This document shows positions 56,588 to 64,000 of a stretch of DNA of 64,000 nucleotides, piece after piece. The translations under genes were made by a program, and so were the position numbers. Origin of the DNA: Microcoleus sp. bin38.metabat.b11b12b14.051 (GTDB taxonomy: Bacteria; Cyanobacteriota; Cyanobacteriia; Cyanobacteriales; Microcoleaceae); assembly GCF_013299165.1 (NCBI RefSeq), contig NZ_JAAFKD010000002.1:62001-126000 (forward strand), read 5' to 3'. The first letter of the stretch is position 1. Every line of letters starts with the position of its first letter. The notes under the pieces were generated by a model that made no database searches, was not told where the DNA came from, and worked only from the letters and a program-made list of their open reading frames with translations.

Positions 56588-58117
56588 ATGCTTGCTAGGG
56601 TTTGGAGTGCATCGATCGTAGGAATTGACGCGGTAAAGGTGGGTGTCGAGGCTGATGTATCGGGCGGGCTGCCGAAAATTGTGGTTGTGGGGTTGCCCGA
56701 TTCGGCGGTGCAAGAGGCTAAAGAAAGGGTTAAGGCTACGTTAAAAAATTCGGGATATGGTTTTCCGATGCGGAGTATTGTGATTAATTTGACTCCGGCG
56801 GATTTGCGTAAGGAAGGCCCGAGTTTTGATTTGCCGATCGCCATTGGCATTTTAGCAGCATCGGAACAGGTCAGCCCTGACCTTTTGGGAGATCATTTAT
56901 TTTTGGGGGAACTCTCTTTGGACGGGAGTTTGCGGCCGGTGGCGGGGGTTTTGCCGATCGCCGCTGCTGCTCAAAAAATGGGTATTTCGGGATTGATTGT
57001 ACCAGCGGCCAATGCCACGGAAGCAGCTTTAGTAAAGGGAATATCTGTTTACGGTTTTGAAAATATTTTTGCAGTTACTGATTTTTTGAACAATCCTCAA
57101 GTCTATTCGCCCGTAGAAGTAAACGGCATACAAGAATTAGGAAAAACCCGGTTTCCTGGTCTAGATTTAAAAGATGTAAAAGGGCAAATTCACGCCAGAC
57201 GGGCTTTGGAAATTGCGGCAGCGGGGGGGCACAATTTAATTTTTGTGGGGCCGCCAGGGAGCGGTAAGACTATGCTGGCGAGACGTTTGCCGGGTATTTT
57301 GCCCCCGCTGACGTTTGATGAAGCTTTAGATGTGACTCAAATTCATTCGGTGGCAGGTTTGTTGAAGGATAAGGGTATGCTGGTGAGCGATCGACCTTTT
57401 CGCAGTCCTCACCATTCAGCATCCGGGCCTTCTCTGGTTGGCGGGGGCAGTTTTCCGCGTCCGGGTGAAATTTCCCTAGCACATCGTGGCGTACTTTTCT
57501 TGGATGAATTGACCGAATTTAAACGAGATGTTTTGGAGTTTTTGCGGCAGCCATTGGAAGATGGTTATGTGACGATTTCTCGAACCAGACAATCGGTAAT
57601 GTTTCCGGCACAATTTACATTAGTTGCAAGTACAAATCCTTGCGCTTGCGGTTACTACGGCGATTCTATCCAACAGTGTACTTGTTCGCCGCAAAAAAGA
57701 GAGCAGTATTGGGCAAAACTTTCCGGGCCTTTGATGGATCGGATTGATTTGCAAGTGGCGGTTAATCGTTTGAAACCCGAGGAAATTACCAGACAGGCGA
57801 CGGGGGAGGAGTCGGAACCGGTGCGGGTGAGGGTGCAGCGGGCGCGAGAGATGGCGACTCACCGTTTTGAGTCGGAATCTGGCTTGCGGTGTAACGCGCA
57901 GATGCTAAGTGGCCACATTAACCAATGGTGTCAGTTGGATGATGCTTCGCGGAATTTGTTGGAGATGGCGATTCGGAAATTGGGGCTTTCGGCGCGGGCG
58001 AGCGATCGAATTTTGAAGGTTGCGAGGACTATTGCTGATTTGTCGGGGGATGAAAGCCTGAAGACTAATCATGTGGGGGAGGCTGTGCAGTATCGGACGA
58101 TCGATCGGATGCAGTAA
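56588..58117 (+). CDS. YifB/ComM-family AAA ATPase (Mg-chelatase-like)
   Basis: A 509-residue ATPase. An N-terminal Lon-protease-like ChlI domain (MLARVWSASIVGIDAVKV, PSFDLPIAIGILAAS, LSLDGSLRPVAGVLP) precedes the AAA domain, with Walker A GPPGSGKTMLARRLPGILPP, FRSPHHSAS, sensor-type GVLFLDELTEF (Walker B) and the zinc-like CACGYYGD...CTC cluster, then the C-terminal winged part LSARASDRILKVARTIADL. ComM homologues act as branch-migration helicases during natural transformation; that role here is inference. The gene carries an acccggtttcctggt repeat motif at about 57147, in frame (KTRFPGL). Confidence 0.93.
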   Translation: MLARVWSASIVGIDAVKVGVEADVSGGLPKIVVVGLPDSAVQEAKERVKATLKNSGYGFPMRSIVINLTPADLRKEGPSFDLPIAIGILAASEQVSPDLLGDHLFLGELSLDGSLRPVAGVLPIAAAAQKMGISGLIVPAANATEAALVKGISVYGFENIFAVTDFLNNPQVYSPVEVNGIQELGKTRFPGLDLKDVKGQIHARRALEIAAAGGHNLIFVGPPGSGKTMLARRLPGILPPLTFDEALDVTQIHSVAGLLKDKGMLVSDRPFRSPHHSASGPSLVGGGSFPRPGEISLAHRGVLFLDELTEFKRDVLEFLRQPLEDGYVTISRTRQSVMFPAQFTLVASTNPCACGYYGDSIQQCTCSPQKREQYWAKLSGPLMDRIDLQVAVNRLKPEEITRQATGEESEPVRVRVQRAREMATHRFESESGLRCNAQMLSGHINQWCQLDDASRNLLEMAIRKLGLSARASDRILKVARTIADLSGDESLKTNHVGEAVQYRTIDRMQ

Positions 58118-58139
58118 GGGGGATTTGTGCGATCGTCTT

Positions 58140-58637: not shown

Positions 58638-59084
58638 CTATTCCTCGTATAAACCAGCTTCTTCAGTCATCTCGATTAGCTGATCTAACAGTTTACGGCG
58701 CTTGCTGTCGCGATGTTCTTTATAAATGATTAAATCTTTAAATCGAATCCGCCGATGGGAACCTACTTTGATATAAGGGATTGCTCCTTCATCTAGCAAC
58801 TTGACAAGAAATGGTCGCGATACATTCAGAATATCAGCAGCTTGCTGCGTCGTCAGTTCGCGATTGTGAAGGACGATCGAAACAGCCCGATCTGATGCCA
58901 TTGCTTGCACAGCTTGACGCAGGATATTGCAGACTGATTCTGGAATTAGAATCTCTTCTCCGTTACTTGTGACTAATTTGGACTGTGCAGATTCTCGGCT
59001 GAGTATCTGTGCTAATTGTGCTATTGATTCTTGTTCTTTTTCTTGCAGCAGAACTGACTCTGGCGATGCTTTTTGCTTCAACAT
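58638..59084 (-). CDS. Excisionase-type HTH protein (possible orphan antitoxin)
   Basis: A 148-residue protein. The N-terminal half is helical and acidic; the C-terminal half holds an MerR/excisionase-like HTH, LTTQQAADILNVSRPFLVKL, followed by IPYIKVGSHRRIRFKDLIIY. Proteins of this type are commonly the antitoxin before a PIN-domain toxin. No PIN gene follows here: the next gene is the HicA-type toxin 22 bp downstream. It could be an orphan, a hybrid unit's regulator, or an excisionase left by a mobile island. Confidence 0.85.
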   Translation of the reverse strand: MLKQKASPESVLLQEKEQESIAQLAQILSRESAQSKLVTSNGEEILIPESVCNILRQAVQAMASDRAVSIVLHNRELTTQQAADILNVSRPFLVKLLDEGAIPYIKVGSHRRIRFKDLIIYKEHRDSKRRKLLDQLIEMTEEAGLYEE

Positions 59085-59279
59085 AGCAAGATATATTTTT
59101 GGGTTGTTGTCTTAACGGTAACACTTTTAGTGCATAAACGCAATATTCGCAACAAACGAAATATTCAAAATTGTATAGGAATTACACAGGTCGAGGACAG
59201 AAACCGGGTTTCTTTGTAAATCTCTACTTAAGAAAGCAAGGATTTGATAAAGTTCAATCAATGTTTATAACTATTCTTG
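59085..59279. other. Intergenic at the toxin-antitoxin/defence boundary
   Basis: It holds an agaaaccgggtttct-type motif at about 59201-59215 and nothing else recognisable. Together with the fragment at 59280-59414 it separates the minus-strand toxin-antitoxin genes from the plus-strand operon. Confidence 0.5.
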
Positions 59280-59414
59280 TCAGTGTTTGGCGGTTTTCTC
59301 GTAAGTATGTCCGTGAGTGTAAGGCTGCATAATATCAGTAAATTTACGCAAGCAGACAACAAAAACTCGCTCTTCTTTTGACCATTGAACGATCGGACTA
59401 TAATGGCTATTCAT
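59280..59414 (-). pseudogene. Truncated HicB-family antitoxin
   Basis: A minus-strand frame with its own ATG (59414) encodes 44 residues: MNSHYSPIVQWSKEERVFVV, then CLRKFTDIMQPYTHGHTYEK TAKH and a TGA. This is the N-terminal half of a HicB antitoxin (beta strands, then the THG-TYE turn), but the second helix and the IPEP-type end are missing. No HicA partner adjoins. It is too short to appear in most gene calls. Not the same subtype as the intact HicB at 58140. Confidence 0.75.
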
Positions 59415-59467
59415 GGGTTATAATACTTGAAATTACCAAGCACAGTTAAATTATATGAAATATAAAA

Positions 59468-61501
59468 ATGGATTATTTAAAATGGAATAATTCAATCGCA
59501 GCTCATTTTTTCAAAAATGAAATGGCACGGCGCAGCGTTCACCTGTATGTCACAGAGAAACTAATAAGACATATTGCTCAAGAAAGCGGTACTAATTTCT
59601 CAGATTTTATTGCAGCTATCAAAACAGGGCCTCCTGGGGTGACAAGGCAGGGTTTGTGCGTGAAAGCCTTACAAAGCCGGGATAATTGGCAGCAGCGAGA
59701 ATTGGACTATCCGCCTTATATCGCTTATTTAGCGCTATTTGTGTTAGCCGCCGGTATTAAAGGAACTTTTGCCGCGCATTCTTACTATCCGGGCTTGCGA
59801 ACATTACTTGGTGAAGAACCTACCACAGGCCAGTATCCTTCATTTAACCGGATGTCGGAACTCTGGGAAGATTTAGAAAAGTGGTCTGATCAAGATATAT
59901 CTGGCAAATGGGGTATTTTTAAGAGCCACAGCATTGGCAAGAGAAAGCACATTGGACTGCCGATCGCCCAAACTCTTTTGACTGAAAAAGAGCGCCGTGC
60001 ACTCCCTGCTATTTTTGCCGCTGCTGACTTAGATCCTATTTCATATCCCGCTGAGGGGGCGATCGCACTTTTATTAGCCAAACACGGCCGCGGACAACTG
60101 CGAAAACGGACGGTGGACTTATTAAAAGAAACCAGCGACAGTGACGAACTTCGCCAAGCATTGCTCGAATGGATTATTGATGAATTGCGCGATTGGAATG
60201 GAACTGCTGAAGATTCAGGTAAAGAGCAGATTTACGGACTATTGAGATTGTGCTGCAAACTCGATACAATTGCTAAACGCGCCACCCTCAGCTTGCGTTG
60301 CAGTACCAAACACGAATTTCCTGAAGACGATTTATTGTTATTTTTAGATGGTAATTGTCAGCCTTTCTCTTGTTACGAAGATAGTGGGGGTTGGTCTTCA
60401 CCTCTAATATGTGAGTCAGACGGAAAACCACTGGTTGCCTCTGAATTTGATTGGTTGAAAGGTTTGCAAGTGCGATCGGCTGACTCTAAATGGTGTTTTA
60501 AGCAGCCAGCATCGCCCATTCGAGTATTCGTTGATGGAGATACTGAGGGATTGCCGGGGTTCGTCGAAGTGCGCCAGTTGCCCACTCAAAAGCCATTTTA
60601 TTTAGCTGCACACGAACAGTGTTTAGAATTGCTGACAATATGGGGAGAATTGAGCTGTCAAGGCTTTGAAAAGTTGCAAATAATAGATGGTTTGCCCAGT
60701 GGGTGGCACTTGTTCAAAGCGCAGGCTGCTTGCAGTGACGAACTCATTAAACAAGAATACCCAATCTTAGCTTTCCCGACTAATGTACGGCTAGAGTTAG
60801 TTGGGGGAATCCGTCTCGAAAGAGGCAATAAGTTCTTTAAGTTTGCCCCGCCAAAATTATTTTTACAAGGTGGTAGCGAATCAATAAAAGTATATTGCAA
60901 TAATCAGCTATTAGATAGCAGAAACTCCGCAGGTAATTATGAACTGCCAGCCGATACTCCAGCGAAAACGAAGTTGCTAATTGAAGCACGCAGTGGGGAG
61001 GATATTATCAGGCGCTCTTCTCTGTTATTAGTAGAAAACTATTCTTTGCCATCCCAAAGCAACGCGCAACAGTTCGATCGCTTCGGGCATCGCCTGACTC
61101 ACGCAGATAATGAAAGCGCGGGCGTTGCAGGTGCATTGGTGCAGAACGTTGTTGGTTTCCCTCCCTTTGACTTCAACACTTGTTTGCCAATACAAGGAAA
61201 GCAGCGGATCTTATTTGTAGGCAAACAAGCAGGTCAAATAGTAACTTTGCCTGGGGAATCGCTGCCGACAGATTGGGAGCCTGTTTGGGCTATTTCCAAA
61301 GGTCGCCATCGCGGTCAAGTAATGTTTTGTGGCACTAATTTATCCGACTCAGAACCTGCAATATGCAAGTGCAGCAACCGCAAAAAAATGCGGGAGTGGA
61401 AAGAAATATTGTGGTACGATCGCAAGATAATTTCCCCGCCCGATCGACAAGAGTTAAGAGTATTGTGGAAAAAATTTCAAAAGGAGGCAGAACGTGTCTG
61501 A
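59468..61501 (+). CDS. Large protein of unknown function, first gene of helicase operon
   Basis: A 677-residue protein. N-terminal part (residues 1-230) is helical and conserved-looking: MDYLKWNNSIAAHFFKNEMA, YPPYIAYLALFVLAAGIKGT, HSYYPGLRTLLGE, GKRKHIGLPIAQTLLTEKER and GQLRKRTVDLLKE. The C-terminal part is beta-rich with Ig-like stretches (RLELVGGIRLERGNKFF; VYCNNQLLDSRNSAGNYELP) and ends with KCSNRKKMREWKE. The hydrophobic run near 78-98 is not a clear transmembrane span. I recall related proteins next to DEAD/DEAH helicases in defence islands, but have no name for them. The next gene overlaps by 8 bp, so the two are translationally coupled. Confidence 0.85.
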   Translation: MDYLKWNNSIAAHFFKNEMARRSVHLYVTEKLIRHIAQESGTNFSDFIAAIKTGPPGVTRQGLCVKALQSRDNWQQRELDYPPYIAYLALFVLAAGIKGTFAAHSYYPGLRTLLGEEPTTGQYPSFNRMSELWEDLEKWSDQDISGKWGIFKSHSIGKRKHIGLPIAQTLLTEKERRALPAIFAAADLDPISYPAEGAIALLLAKHGRGQLRKRTVDLLKETSDSDELRQALLEWIIDELRDWNGTAEDSGKEQIYGLLRLCCKLDTIAKRATLSLRCSTKHEFPEDDLLLFLDGNCQPFSCYEDSGGWSSPLICESDGKPLVASEFDWLKGLQVRSADSKWCFKQPASPIRVFVDGDTEGLPGFVEVRQLPTQKPFYLAAHEQCLELLTIWGELSCQGFEKLQIIDGLPSGWHLFKAQAACSDELIKQEYPILAFPTNVRLELVGGIRLERGNKFFKFAPPKLFLQGGSESIKVYCNNQLLDSRNSAGNYELPADTPAKTKLLIEARSGEDIIRRSSLLLVENYSLPSQSNAQQFDRFGHRLTHADNESAGVAGALVQNVVGFPPFDFNTCLPIQGKQRILFVGKQAGQIVTLPGESLPTDWEPVWAISKGRHRGQVMFCGTNLSDSEPAICKCSNRKKMREWKEILWYDRKIISPPDRQELRVLWKKFQKEAERV

Positions 61502-62504
61502 AACTAGCGAAAAACTGCTCTACGTTATTTCAGCAAAAAAGGAACTTGCTTGGCTATCCTTTAAGGAAACCTTTGATTATTTGTATAATCTTGAGACGGG
61601 TGTGAGGGAGGAAAATATAGACAAAGACGGAATTAAGAATAAAAGATTGCAAGCAATTCGCGCCCTCGATTCACTTGGTCATTGTGATTTTAATTTTAGC
61701 GATGATAGCAGCAAGAATAAGGTTTATGCAGCACCCCCTGTATTGGTGCGATTGCCTTGTACTGGCTTTCCTCAAGCCATTTTAGCAGGAGCGCGATCGC
61801 CTGCTACGATCGCACAATTATCAAATACTTGTCAGTCTGTGGGAAATCACATCAACCTTGAAATCAAAGAACAAGCCAGTGAATCAGTGCTGATACCGAA
61901 GCGAGTGGCTGTACAAGCAGAGGATGTGAGGGAATTAGAGGCGATATGCAATTCCCTTAAAATACCATTCATAGAAACCCCTTCTGCTTGGTCAGTGCTG
62001 CATTTTTCCGCCAGTATTGACGATTACTTAGCTACCATCCAATGGTCTAAAGAACCAGAATTAAACTGGCAAAACAAAACCTTTAACCCGATTTATTTAC
62101 AATTTGAATCCATCAAAGAAACCGATTACCCCATTCGCCTTACTGGATACAGTCACCCATCGCGAAATACCAAATCGTACTATCTTTGGCAAGACGAAAG
62201 GTGTACCGAAATAGACCTCGATTGGGGAAGGTATGCCGTTCTCAAAGCACTGCGGCGGAGTGTTCTTATCTACGACAAGTGCAGATTTACTATGGCAGTA
62301 CCAGCCAGCGCCAATCTGCCACGAATCCTAGAAAGAGCCTTAACCCTTTGTTCCGGTTATGCAGCAAAATATGAAAAAATGCCGCGTGTTCTGCCGCCAA
62401 TTCAGGGATTCAATTTATTCACCGCTGTTCCCCCTCAAATAGCAGAAATGACCGCCGCTAAATTAGGGCAGACACTATTGCAGCAATCTTTAAGTATAAC
62501 ATAG
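61494..62504 (+). CDS. Unknown protein, second gene of helicase operon
   Basis: A 336-residue protein starting at GTG 61494, which overlaps the upstream stop by 8 bp and is preceded by aaggaggc. The N-terminal 65 residues look like a winged-helix module (LSFKETFDYLYNLE, RLQAIRALDSLGHCDFNFSD). The rest is alpha/beta without a motif that I recognise: VYAAPPVLVRLPCTGFPQAI, SWSVLHFSASIDDYL-type and LKALRRSVLIYDKCRF segments. It could be a specificity or regulatory subunit of the helicase. Its stop is 11 bp before the helicase start. Confidence 0.8.
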   Translation: MSETSEKLLYVISAKKELAWLSFKETFDYLYNLETGVREENIDKDGIKNKRLQAIRALDSLGHCDFNFSDDSSKNKVYAAPPVLVRLPCTGFPQAILAGARSPATIAQLSNTCQSVGNHINLEIKEQASESVLIPKRVAVQAEDVRELEAICNSLKIPFIETPSAWSVLHFSASIDDYLATIQWSKEPELNWQNKTFNPIYLQFESIKETDYPIRLTGYSHPSRNTKSYYLWQDERCTEIDLDWGRYAVLKALRRSVLIYDKCRFTMAVPASANLPRILERALTLCSGYAAKYEKMPRVLPPIQGFNLFTAVPPQIAEMTAAKLGQTLLQQSLSIT

Positions 62505-62515
62505 TGAGGTAATTT

Positions 62516-64000
62516 ATGCACGACCCAATTAACGCCTTTAACACAATCCGCGACAACTTTCTACTTTACATAAAAACCGCTTTCGGAACTCAATTCCCCG
62601 AAATTGAACGAGAACGGGAAAGACTGCTGCGCCAACCCGGTGCATTCCATCAAGAACCCTGGATAGAACCGATGCCGAGCTATCAAAAATCAGGTAAAAC
62701 CATCCATGATTTAGATATTTCAAATGTACCGGGATTGGATGAAACTGCCCTTCAAGACTTTAAACAACTTGCCTTTTGCGGACTTGTAGGCAATTACGAA
62801 CTGTACAGCCACCAAATCCAAATGCTGCGACAGGCGTTAGAGGGTCAAAATGCTGTAGTAACGGCTGGTACTGGCTCAGGTAAAACCGAATCTTTCCTGT
62901 TGCCTTTGTTTGCTTATCTTGCCAAAGAATCAAGAACGTGGAATGCTCCAAATCCAGATTTACCTCATCTTAATGACTGGTGGAAAAATCAGGATTGGCA
63001 AGACGAATGTAACCCACGGCTAACAAAAAATCGCAGTTTTAAAAGGTCTTATCGCGTTCCTCAGAGGAGTCACGAAAAGCGGGATGCTGCCGTTCGCGCC
63101 CTGATTTTATATCCCATGAATGCCTTAGTTGAAGACCAGCTAACTCGACTTCGCCGGGCCCTCGATTCCGATGAAGCTAGAGAGTGGTTTCAAAATAATA
63201 GAAATGGAAATAGACTTTACTTTGGGAGATACAATGGCGTTACTCCCGTACCGGGGCATGAATACAAAGAAAATCGTAAACCTAATGGCAAAAAAATAGA
63301 AGAGCTGCTGGAAGCAATACAGCAGATGCAGTTATCAGCCGATCGCGCTAGCGAACACGCCGATCGCACTGGCGAGCGAGATGTGAGGTTCTTTTTCCCG
63401 CGTTTAGATGGGGCAGAAATGCGCTGTCGCTGGGATATGAAAGATGCCCCGCCAGATATCTTAATCACCAACTATTCTATGCTGAGTATCATGCTGATGC
63501 GCGATATCGAGCAAGATATTTTTGAAAAAACAAAGGAATGGTTAAACAAAGATGGTAGCGTCTTTCATTTAATTGTTGACGAATTGCACTTGTATCGCGG
63601 CACTTCGGGGACAGAAGTAGCTTATTTGTTGCGACTTTTGCTGCAACGTTTAGGGCTGCATCCCGGTCATCCAAAATTGCGGATTCTTGCCTCTAGTGCA
63701 TCTTTGGAACCAGACGATACAAAAAGCTTAGAATTTCTGAATCAATTCTTTGGTGCCGAATGGAATTCTGAGCAAATTATACCGGGTCATTTAGAACAAA
63801 TTCCACCAATCGAAGGTCAAAAATTTCTGGATAGCGAACCGTTTATCGCTTTGGCAGAAACACCAGAAATTAACAATACAGAAACTTTGAATAAAACTGC
63901 TGCATACAATGATTGCAGCCAAATTGTGGAATCTGAAACCGCGCAGGTTGGGGCTAGAATGGTCGAGGGTTGTAACGTTGATGGCAAAATTCGCGCCGTA
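62516..64000 (+). CDS. DELH-box superfamily 2 helicase, MrfA/DISARM/Druantia-like (3' partial)
   Basis: The frame opens at ATG 62516 (MHDPINAFNTIRDNF), after a tgaggt site, and runs off the window; 495 residues are visible. Walker A is AGTGSGKT at residues 117-124, motif Ia ALILYPMNALVEDQL, motif Ic-like ILITNYSMLSIMLMRD, Walker B DELH at 355-358 (IVDELHLYRGTSGTEVAYLL) and motif III ASSASL. Helicases with DELH-YRG are of the YprA/MrfA type and usually continue for 1000-2000 residues to a DUF1998 zinc domain. The same family provides DrmA of DISARM and DruE of Druantia. A DNA-translocating role is expected. Confidence 0.9.
   Translation, partial: MHDPINAFNTIRDNFLLYIKTAFGTQFPEIERERERLLRQPGAFHQEPWIEPMPSYQKSGKTIHDLDISNVPGLDETALQDFKQLAFCGLVGNYELYSHQIQMLRQALEGQNAVVTAGTGSGKTESFLLPLFAYLAKESRTWNAPNPDLPHLNDWWKNQDWQDECNPRLTKNRSFKRSYRVPQRSHEKRDAAVRALILYPMNALVEDQLTRLRRALDSDEAREWFQNNRNGNRLYFGRYNGVTPVPGHEYKENRKPNGKKIEELLEAIQQMQLSADRASEHADRTGERDVRFFFPRLDGAEMRCRWDMKDAPPDILITNYSMLSIMLMRDIEQDIFEKTKEWLNKDGSVFHLIVDELHLYRGTSGTEVAYLLRLLLQRLGLHPGHPKLRILASSASLEPDDTKSLEFLNQFFGAEWNSEQIIPGHLEQIPPIEGQKFLDSEPFIALAETPEINNTETLNKTAAYNDCSQIVESETAQVGARMVEGCNVDGKIRAV

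Follow-up and report, generated by a model that had tools for sequence, protein, structure and literature searches.

The last three genes of a 64,000-nucleotide stretch of DNA from Microcoleus sp. (here called the window; C2:62001-126000 in a 7.07-Mb genome assembly of 64 contigs) very probably constitute a complete Druantia type IV operon with the gene order DruF-DruL-DruE, which is a predicted anti-phage system that has already been catalogued. The assignment is made because all three genes match DruF, DruL and DruE profiles, and it is these proteins that define the type: Druantia type IV was described computationally in 2021 as DruE, DruF and DruL without DruM and DruG, with 168 instances in RefSeq v201 from 11 phyla (PMC8565338). 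The three genes are the following.

druF: 59468..61501, plus strand, 677 aa, ATG start
druL: 61494..62504, plus strand, 336 aa, GTG start
druE, 5' part: 62516..64000, plus strand, ATG start, YprA-family SF2 helicase that continues past the window

The genes druF and druL overlap by 8 bp, a gap of 11 bp separates druL from druE, and the GTGSGKT, DELH and ASSAS motifs are all present in the helicase, so the gene arrangement and the motifs from which the original prediction had started were re-found in the sequence. The helicase had been seen to run off the window, and with the downstream sequence added (stretch L002, whose base 1 is window base 57000) it is an intact protein of 1891 aa that has no internal stop and ends at L002:11192, corresponding to 68191 in window numbering. 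A promoter scan gave 4 sites where 1.9 were expected, which is uninformative.

With the PADLOC models, gene 1 matches DruF (PDLC00054) with E 1.8e-218 over residues 1-677, gene 2 matches DruL (PDLC00056) with E 4.3e-101 over residues 5-335, and gene 3 matches the DruE4 and DruE2 models with E 0 over residues 1-1890, while no PADLOC model of DruM or DruG matched genes 1 and 2 or the five neighbouring proteins that were scanned. Judged by these near full-length matches and by the conserved synteny described below, the three-gene group is more than a chance neighbourhood. Like in the type IV systems of PMC8565338, DruF, DruL and DruE are adjacent on one strand, DruM and DruG were not found, and nothing essential differs; what is added here are DruF-DruL fusions, a DruL model, a full-length DruE without a visible C-terminal nuclease motif, and the ends of the cassette. 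The original prediction had stated that the two partners match no Druantia protein, which is wrong in view of the DruF and DruL matches, and had concluded that the trio may be a distinct or poorly described helicase system. In favour of such a distinct system is that neither partner has an accepted match in Pfam or NCBIfam, and this absence may explain why the partners could not be placed at first, but all three genes match one named system near full length, and the idea, which retains hardly any probability, is rejected.

Several points weigh against the type IV assignment or against the functional reading that is attached to it. The score of DruE is 1937 bits with one DruE2 model and slightly lower, 1921 bits, with DruE4, and the type II and type IV helicases thus appear hardly separable by sequence. 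No measured type IV activity or published phage-protection test was found in the open-licence literature of PubMed Central, where PMC8565338 alone among the full texts uses the name 'Druantia type IV' and, among the best 20 of 80 papers matched for DruL or DruF, no other concerns this system. The protection tests in the passages of PMC8565338 examined are of Zorya III, Hachiman II and Lamassu II, not of Druantia IV. Fold matches are weak: no Foldseek match at E 0.001 or better was obtained for the DruF and DruL models, and no convincing match emerged when the whole models were compared with the PDB. The analogy to Druantia type III (DruH-DruE), which is used below, can be functional only, because DruF has no sequence relation to the one DruH sequence with which it was compared (E 0.59, which is not a strong test); up to E 1, genes 1 and 2 matched no DruH model either. 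Finally, one type III study found no stable DruE-DruH complex (PMC13192584), and a pull-down of DruH with a DruE stand-in has been reported in another (PMC13316683).

Pfam DEAD (residues 98-218) and Helicase_C (1197-1243) match DruE above their cut-offs, and among 89 aligned DruE sequences the Walker A residues G, T, G, G, K and T, the DELH motif and the motif VI core Q-Q-R-x-G-R-x-G-R-R are invariant, with S121 kept in 87 of them; the Walker A lysine is K123, and the acidic residues of DELH are D355 and E356. A DUF1998-type region, which the original prediction had expected downstream, is indeed matched there as MZB at residues 1671-1761, with 20.3 bits against a cut-off of 24.2 and thus below threshold. 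Behind the MZB cysteines, in the last ~90 residues, an H-P-(L/F)-W motif (H in 88/89) and two arginines (83/89 and 86/89) are kept, a PD-(D/E)xK pattern is not visible by eye in the aligned C-termini, and the Vsr family is absent both from the Pfam matches of 30 DruE C-termini and from the PDB sequence search. Inactivated Vsr domains have been described at the C-terminus of DruE in types I and II (Bell et al., PMC12458937), and a DruE C-terminus without visible nuclease motif fits these. Over its full length (residues 2-1887) the DruE profile matches the PDB group 9wae ('Helicase', 1970 aa) with 1051.6 bits; a literature search for five PDB codes found no related paper.

With DISARM (DrmA/DrmB), the locus shares a YprA-family helicase with a DUF1998-type region, but here the MZB region lies inside the helicase, neither a separate DrmB nor a methyltransferase or PLD nuclease is found among the neighbouring genes scanned, and the DrmA models match DruE weakly (34.6 bits). 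The shared helicase family and the DUF1998-type domain would also suit a housekeeping role in DNA repair of the MrfA/YprA kind. Such a role is very unlikely, though, as the general DEAH-box helicase model TIGR03817 gives DruE only 90 bits against a cut-off of 874, strong DruE4 matches are spread patchily, in 19 of 292 cyanobacterial genomes, and copies occur on plasmids; the next genes scanned outside the operon are HicA/HicB, HTH_17, a HicB-like gene and purB.

A DruE alignment run against genome_contigs yielded 460 relatives, the hosts of which include Cyanobacteria, Chloroflexota, Bacillota, Bacteroidota, Acidobacteria and archaea, and synteny was counted in the best 80 of these, a set chosen by likeness to the type IV kind of DruE that says nothing on the frequency of partners beside more distant DruE. 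DruF and/or DruL accompany DruE in 77 of the 80 loci, which bears out the earlier view of a helicase-centred, defence-type operon kept as a unit; within this set, the helicase does not mostly occur without its two partners. DruF and DruL are separate open reading frames (ORFs) in 40 loci, among them L065 with DruL in two pieces and two loci with extra sequence within the operon (~3.3 kb between DruF and DruL in L054, ~1.1 kb between DruL and DruE in L096). In 31 of the 80 loci the two are joined in a single ORF (the DruL part of L113 being weak, E 2e-4), and six further loci have at least one partner: L088, L092 and L107 are cut by contig ends, L101 and L102 show a weak DruF only, and L116 has DruF in two ORFs and a DruL found by tblastn. 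No partner was seen in L067, L104 and L110, and in the latter two DruE begins at the contig edge.

A set of 292 cyanobacterial genomes, which overlaps with the best 80, was searched with the PADLOC models DruL, DruF and DruE4 (DruE4 with E up to 1e-30), and these matched 16, 18 and 25 genomes, respectively. Strong DruE4 matches, defined by a best piece of at least 860 bits, amount to 20 loci in the 19 genomes mentioned above, and profiles built in the present analysis located both DruF and DruL beside 19 of the 20. A gene is damaged in three of these 19 trio loci (DruF shortened in G197:C43, a fragmented gene in G119, DruE in two ORFs in G039). The exception, G189, has a DruE-family helicase of 2152 aa without adjoining DruF or DruL (L124:8758-15216); the large ORF in divergent orientation next to it matches PADLOC PDC-S37 and Hhe. 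L036 (G056), with a DruL-like ORF behind helicase ORFs that match DruE weakly, was excluded from the trio counts. Among 50,697 phage records, only two contained partial helicase matches, and single-protein queries of viral contigs revealed no relative of DruL and none of the ~307-aa protein discussed below.

The frequent occurrence of DruF and DruL as one polypeptide is of interest for their function; no statement on such a fusion, or on a relationship of DruL, was found in the passages of the Druantia papers examined. DruF is predicted to consist of a helical N-terminal part up to residue 243, a beta-rich middle and an immunoglobulin (Ig)-like domain at ~439-527, and DruL, whose structure model is confident, of a possible winged-helix N-terminus, an alpha/beta middle domain and a beta-rich C-terminus. 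The fold searches covered well only DruL 79-162 and DruF 439-526, and few rows support the winged helix, which DruL may nevertheless possess according to the model. Against viral structures, the DruF model gave no match at E 0.001 or better; rows with a template modelling (TM) score of ~0.1, which include tail or Ig-like proteins of phages, are not meaningful. In the PDB sequences, the DruF profile has no match up to E 1 and the DruL profile two rows at chance level (E 0.42 and 0.44).

No cluster of catalytic-type residues is conserved in the alignments of 62 DruF and 66 DruL sequences. The polar columns conserved in at least 75% of the rows are Y3, N7, D46, Y84, Y87, Y106, Y107, Q168, R277, S310, R352 and E367 in DruF, and R101, Y219, D241, R281, S287 and K323 in DruL. 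These are few and without an acidic cluster, and no nuclease fold stood out in the fold searches, which were weak and concerned parts of the proteins only. Both findings speak against the idea that DruF or DruL is itself the effector, an enzyme of an unrecognised nuclease class to which DruE only feeds DNA. That idea is improbable, even if no other nuclease candidate was seen in the operon and the type III DruH offers a precedent of a kind: DNA cleavage by its dimer has been reported (PMC13192584), yet a second study saw no canonical nuclease domain in it (PMC13316683).

DruL has relatives beyond type IV. In two long PADLOC DruF2 models, it is the C-terminal part that matches DruL (E 9.2e-6 and 7.1e-5; for the DruL of L128, E 3e-11 and 2.1e-7). 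In addition, the cyanobacterial loci L118, L119, L134, L135 and L136, three of which are plasmid-borne, encode a protein of 304-310 aa followed by a DruE-family helicase (broken into two ORFs in L119) and preceded by a protein of ~900-1050 aa (two ORFs in L135), which is annotated as chromosome-segregation-ATPase-like in L134 and L135. Three of these uncatalogued DruE-family loci have the following coordinates.

L134:4093-14289
L135:3448-14286
L136:4296-14172

The partners scanned in these loci match no PADLOC model with an E of 0.01 or better, the 304-310-aa protein giving only weak rows (DruD1 at 0.035, a CARF model at 0.039), and the helicase of L134, the sole one scanned, has DruE1 as its best model. 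The loci may represent a Druantia type that has not been listed. An alignment of the DruL profile with the five sequences of the 304-310-aa family (A4) spans 282 columns, almost the full length, with a probability of 84.7% and E 6.7e-6 for a single comparison. Its score is 46.5, whereas 200 column shuffles reached at most 26.1, with a mean of 14.5, and the controls scored 16.0 (reversed profile), 14.9 (DruF) and no more than 19.4 (pieces of DruE). By this profile comparison, DruL is a distant homologue of the uncatalogued ~307-aa protein that adjoins other DruE-family helicases. The A4 family may in turn be related to the type I DruD, for which an alignment with one DruD from a P. putida plasmid (L138) is suggestive only (E 0.004; score 28.3, where 60 shuffles gave no more than 21.0 and DruA, DruB and DruC scored 12.7-19.9). 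A relationship of DruL itself to this DruD was tried and rejected: the direct comparison gives E 0.37, and via a merged A2+A4 profile the score of 16.1 lies below the maximum of 30.0 of 60 shuffles. Searches with the DruD1 model were negative in 11 and in 292 genomes, with no control matched in either.

These relationships bear on the question of whether types II and IV are to be separated at all. The type II system (DruM-DruF-DruG-DruE) shares DruE and DruF families with the present locus, which lacks the methyltransferase DruM and DruG. It could be that both types are one family in which the present locus is the core DruF-DruL-DruE module, type II has DruM and DruG in addition, and the name 'type IV' stands for the core alone, a reading to which somewhat less than an even chance is given. 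Along with the DruL-like C-terminus of the two DruF2 models and the similar scores of the DruE2 and DruE4 models on DruE, it is supported by L128:3806-14589 on a plasmid of Nostoc sp. C052, which resembles a type II/type IV hybrid with a cytosine methyltransferase ahead of DruF, DruL and DruE, and by L027, L028, L030 and L034, where an additional protein of 583-642 aa stands between DruF and DruL. On the other hand, PADLOC separates the two types, and in the type II locus L131 the alignment of DruF2 with DruF is partial (E 7.4e-5, 78 columns) and with DruL it hardly exists (E 0.034). Of the additional proteins, the three scanned have weak SMC-like or DruC matches; the four loci belong to small genomes of one family, by inference picocyanobacteria, and in L027 and L028 a NERD-helicase protein comes after DruE.

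How the type IV proteins could work together may be inferred, as a rather tentative proposal when taken as a whole, from the type III systems, in which a large partner is likewise encoded upstream of a YprA-family helicase. There, DruH has Ig-like domains and is the proposed sensor of late structural proteins of the phage, and DruE binds DNA that contains single-stranded DNA and cleaves it by means of PLD domains (PMC13192584); a mycobacterial type III system is activated by a minor tail protein (PMC13316683). By analogy, the upstream partner would be the sensor and the helicase the effector. DruF, in which one Ig-like domain is predicted, and DruL would form a single recognition and loading unit, to which DruF may contribute the Ig-like domain and DruL may contribute DNA binding via a winged helix. 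This unit would respond to an infection cue, either a protein of the phage or DNA of unusual structure, and would load or license DruE on phage DNA with exposed single strands, and DruE would then translocate or unwind by ATP hydrolysis, thereby blocking replication or handing the DNA to host nucleases. Unlike the type III DruE with its PLD domains, the DruE of this locus has no PLD family among its Pfam matches. As no active nuclease could be recognised in any of the three proteins, a replication block or the passing of DNA to host nucleases appears likelier; of all parts of the proposal, this one is the weakest.

The operon is, as far as sequence comparison tells, a mobile cassette that occurs at different places. 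The cassette and two neighbouring features have the following positions.

Mobile cassette: 59415-68209 (8.8 kb; window part 59415..64000), delimited by the blastn block to G039
HicB-like remnant: 59244..59414 (171 bp), just left of the cassette, with an 82% identical copy at 68738-68908 beyond the operon
Excisionase-type HTH_17 gene: 58638-59084, minus strand (HTH_17 E 2e-12; TIGR01764 E 7.5e-14)

In G039, from the same genus, the operon is located at another place and aligns in one blastn block of 8809 columns with 89% identity. In the present genome the cassette lies between yifB and purB, in the interval from window position 58118 to 69579 (L002:12580), and a search of 29 same-genus genomes (G000 included) gave 11 relatives in which yifB and purB share a contig. 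The two queries are less than 7 kb apart in eight of the 11, and none of the eight has a blastn match of at least 60 bp to 59415-68245; in G305, G326 and G099, which are outside this comparison, the genes are ~18-20 kb apart on opposite strands. The operon stands beside the same yifB flank in the records L038, L066 and L069 and beside the purB flank in L046. Relatives with 66-67% identity are found on cyanobacterial plasmids, and of the 76 matching plasmid records, 18 span 80% of DruE or more.

The original prediction had also pointed to a local island of HicAB, an orphan excisionase-type protein and a truncated HicB. HicA is confirmed (PF07927, E 2e-11), the adjoining HicB is sub-threshold (25 against 27 bits), and the 'truncated HicB' comes down to the weakly labelled 171-bp stretch, the corresponding ORF of which in L162 matches HicB with 22.6 against 27 bits. 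The excisionase-type gene encodes an HTH_17 protein with homologues in five of the eight relatives (L161, partial, L162, L164, L166 and L167). As a sign of a mobile element it gives weak support because its homologues in relatives adjoin a PIN-domain ORF, as in a toxin-antitoxin pair (L162, L164 and L166; PF13470, one above and two below the cut-off), and the gene is probably an orphan antitoxin. That the yifB-purB spot takes up defence-type genes is supported, because the interval varies and includes toxin-antitoxin-like ORFs and a methylase in the relatives: the eight carry varied genes there, L162-L166 have related ORFs of 391-415 aa, and that of L162 is a C-5 cytosine DNA methylase (PF00145, E 5.5e-65). 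The interval of L162 also holds an ORF of 806 aa. Further downstream of the operon, at L002:14810-15279, there are tandem short repeats with repeated MRTLVRQKSRFV units on one strand.

The locus is thus one more copy of a catalogued system, of a type for which neither an activity test nor a mechanism was found published in the open-licence literature and of which neither partner is known to Pfam and NCBIfam. What is gained are statements that can be tested: that DruF and DruL would act as one unit, that a DruL-type protein would be common to several Druantia-like systems, and that DruE of the type IV branch would work without a recognisable nuclease. There is about an even chance that DruL is a near-universal partner of the Druantia helicases of the I, II and IV branch, occurring as a separate gene in type IV, as the C-terminal part of a long DruF in Bacteroidota and others, and in a diverged ~307-aa form in the uncatalogued cyanobacterial system with a 900-1050-aa protein and a DruE-family helicase. 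If this is true, DruL would link different sensors to helicases of a single kind.

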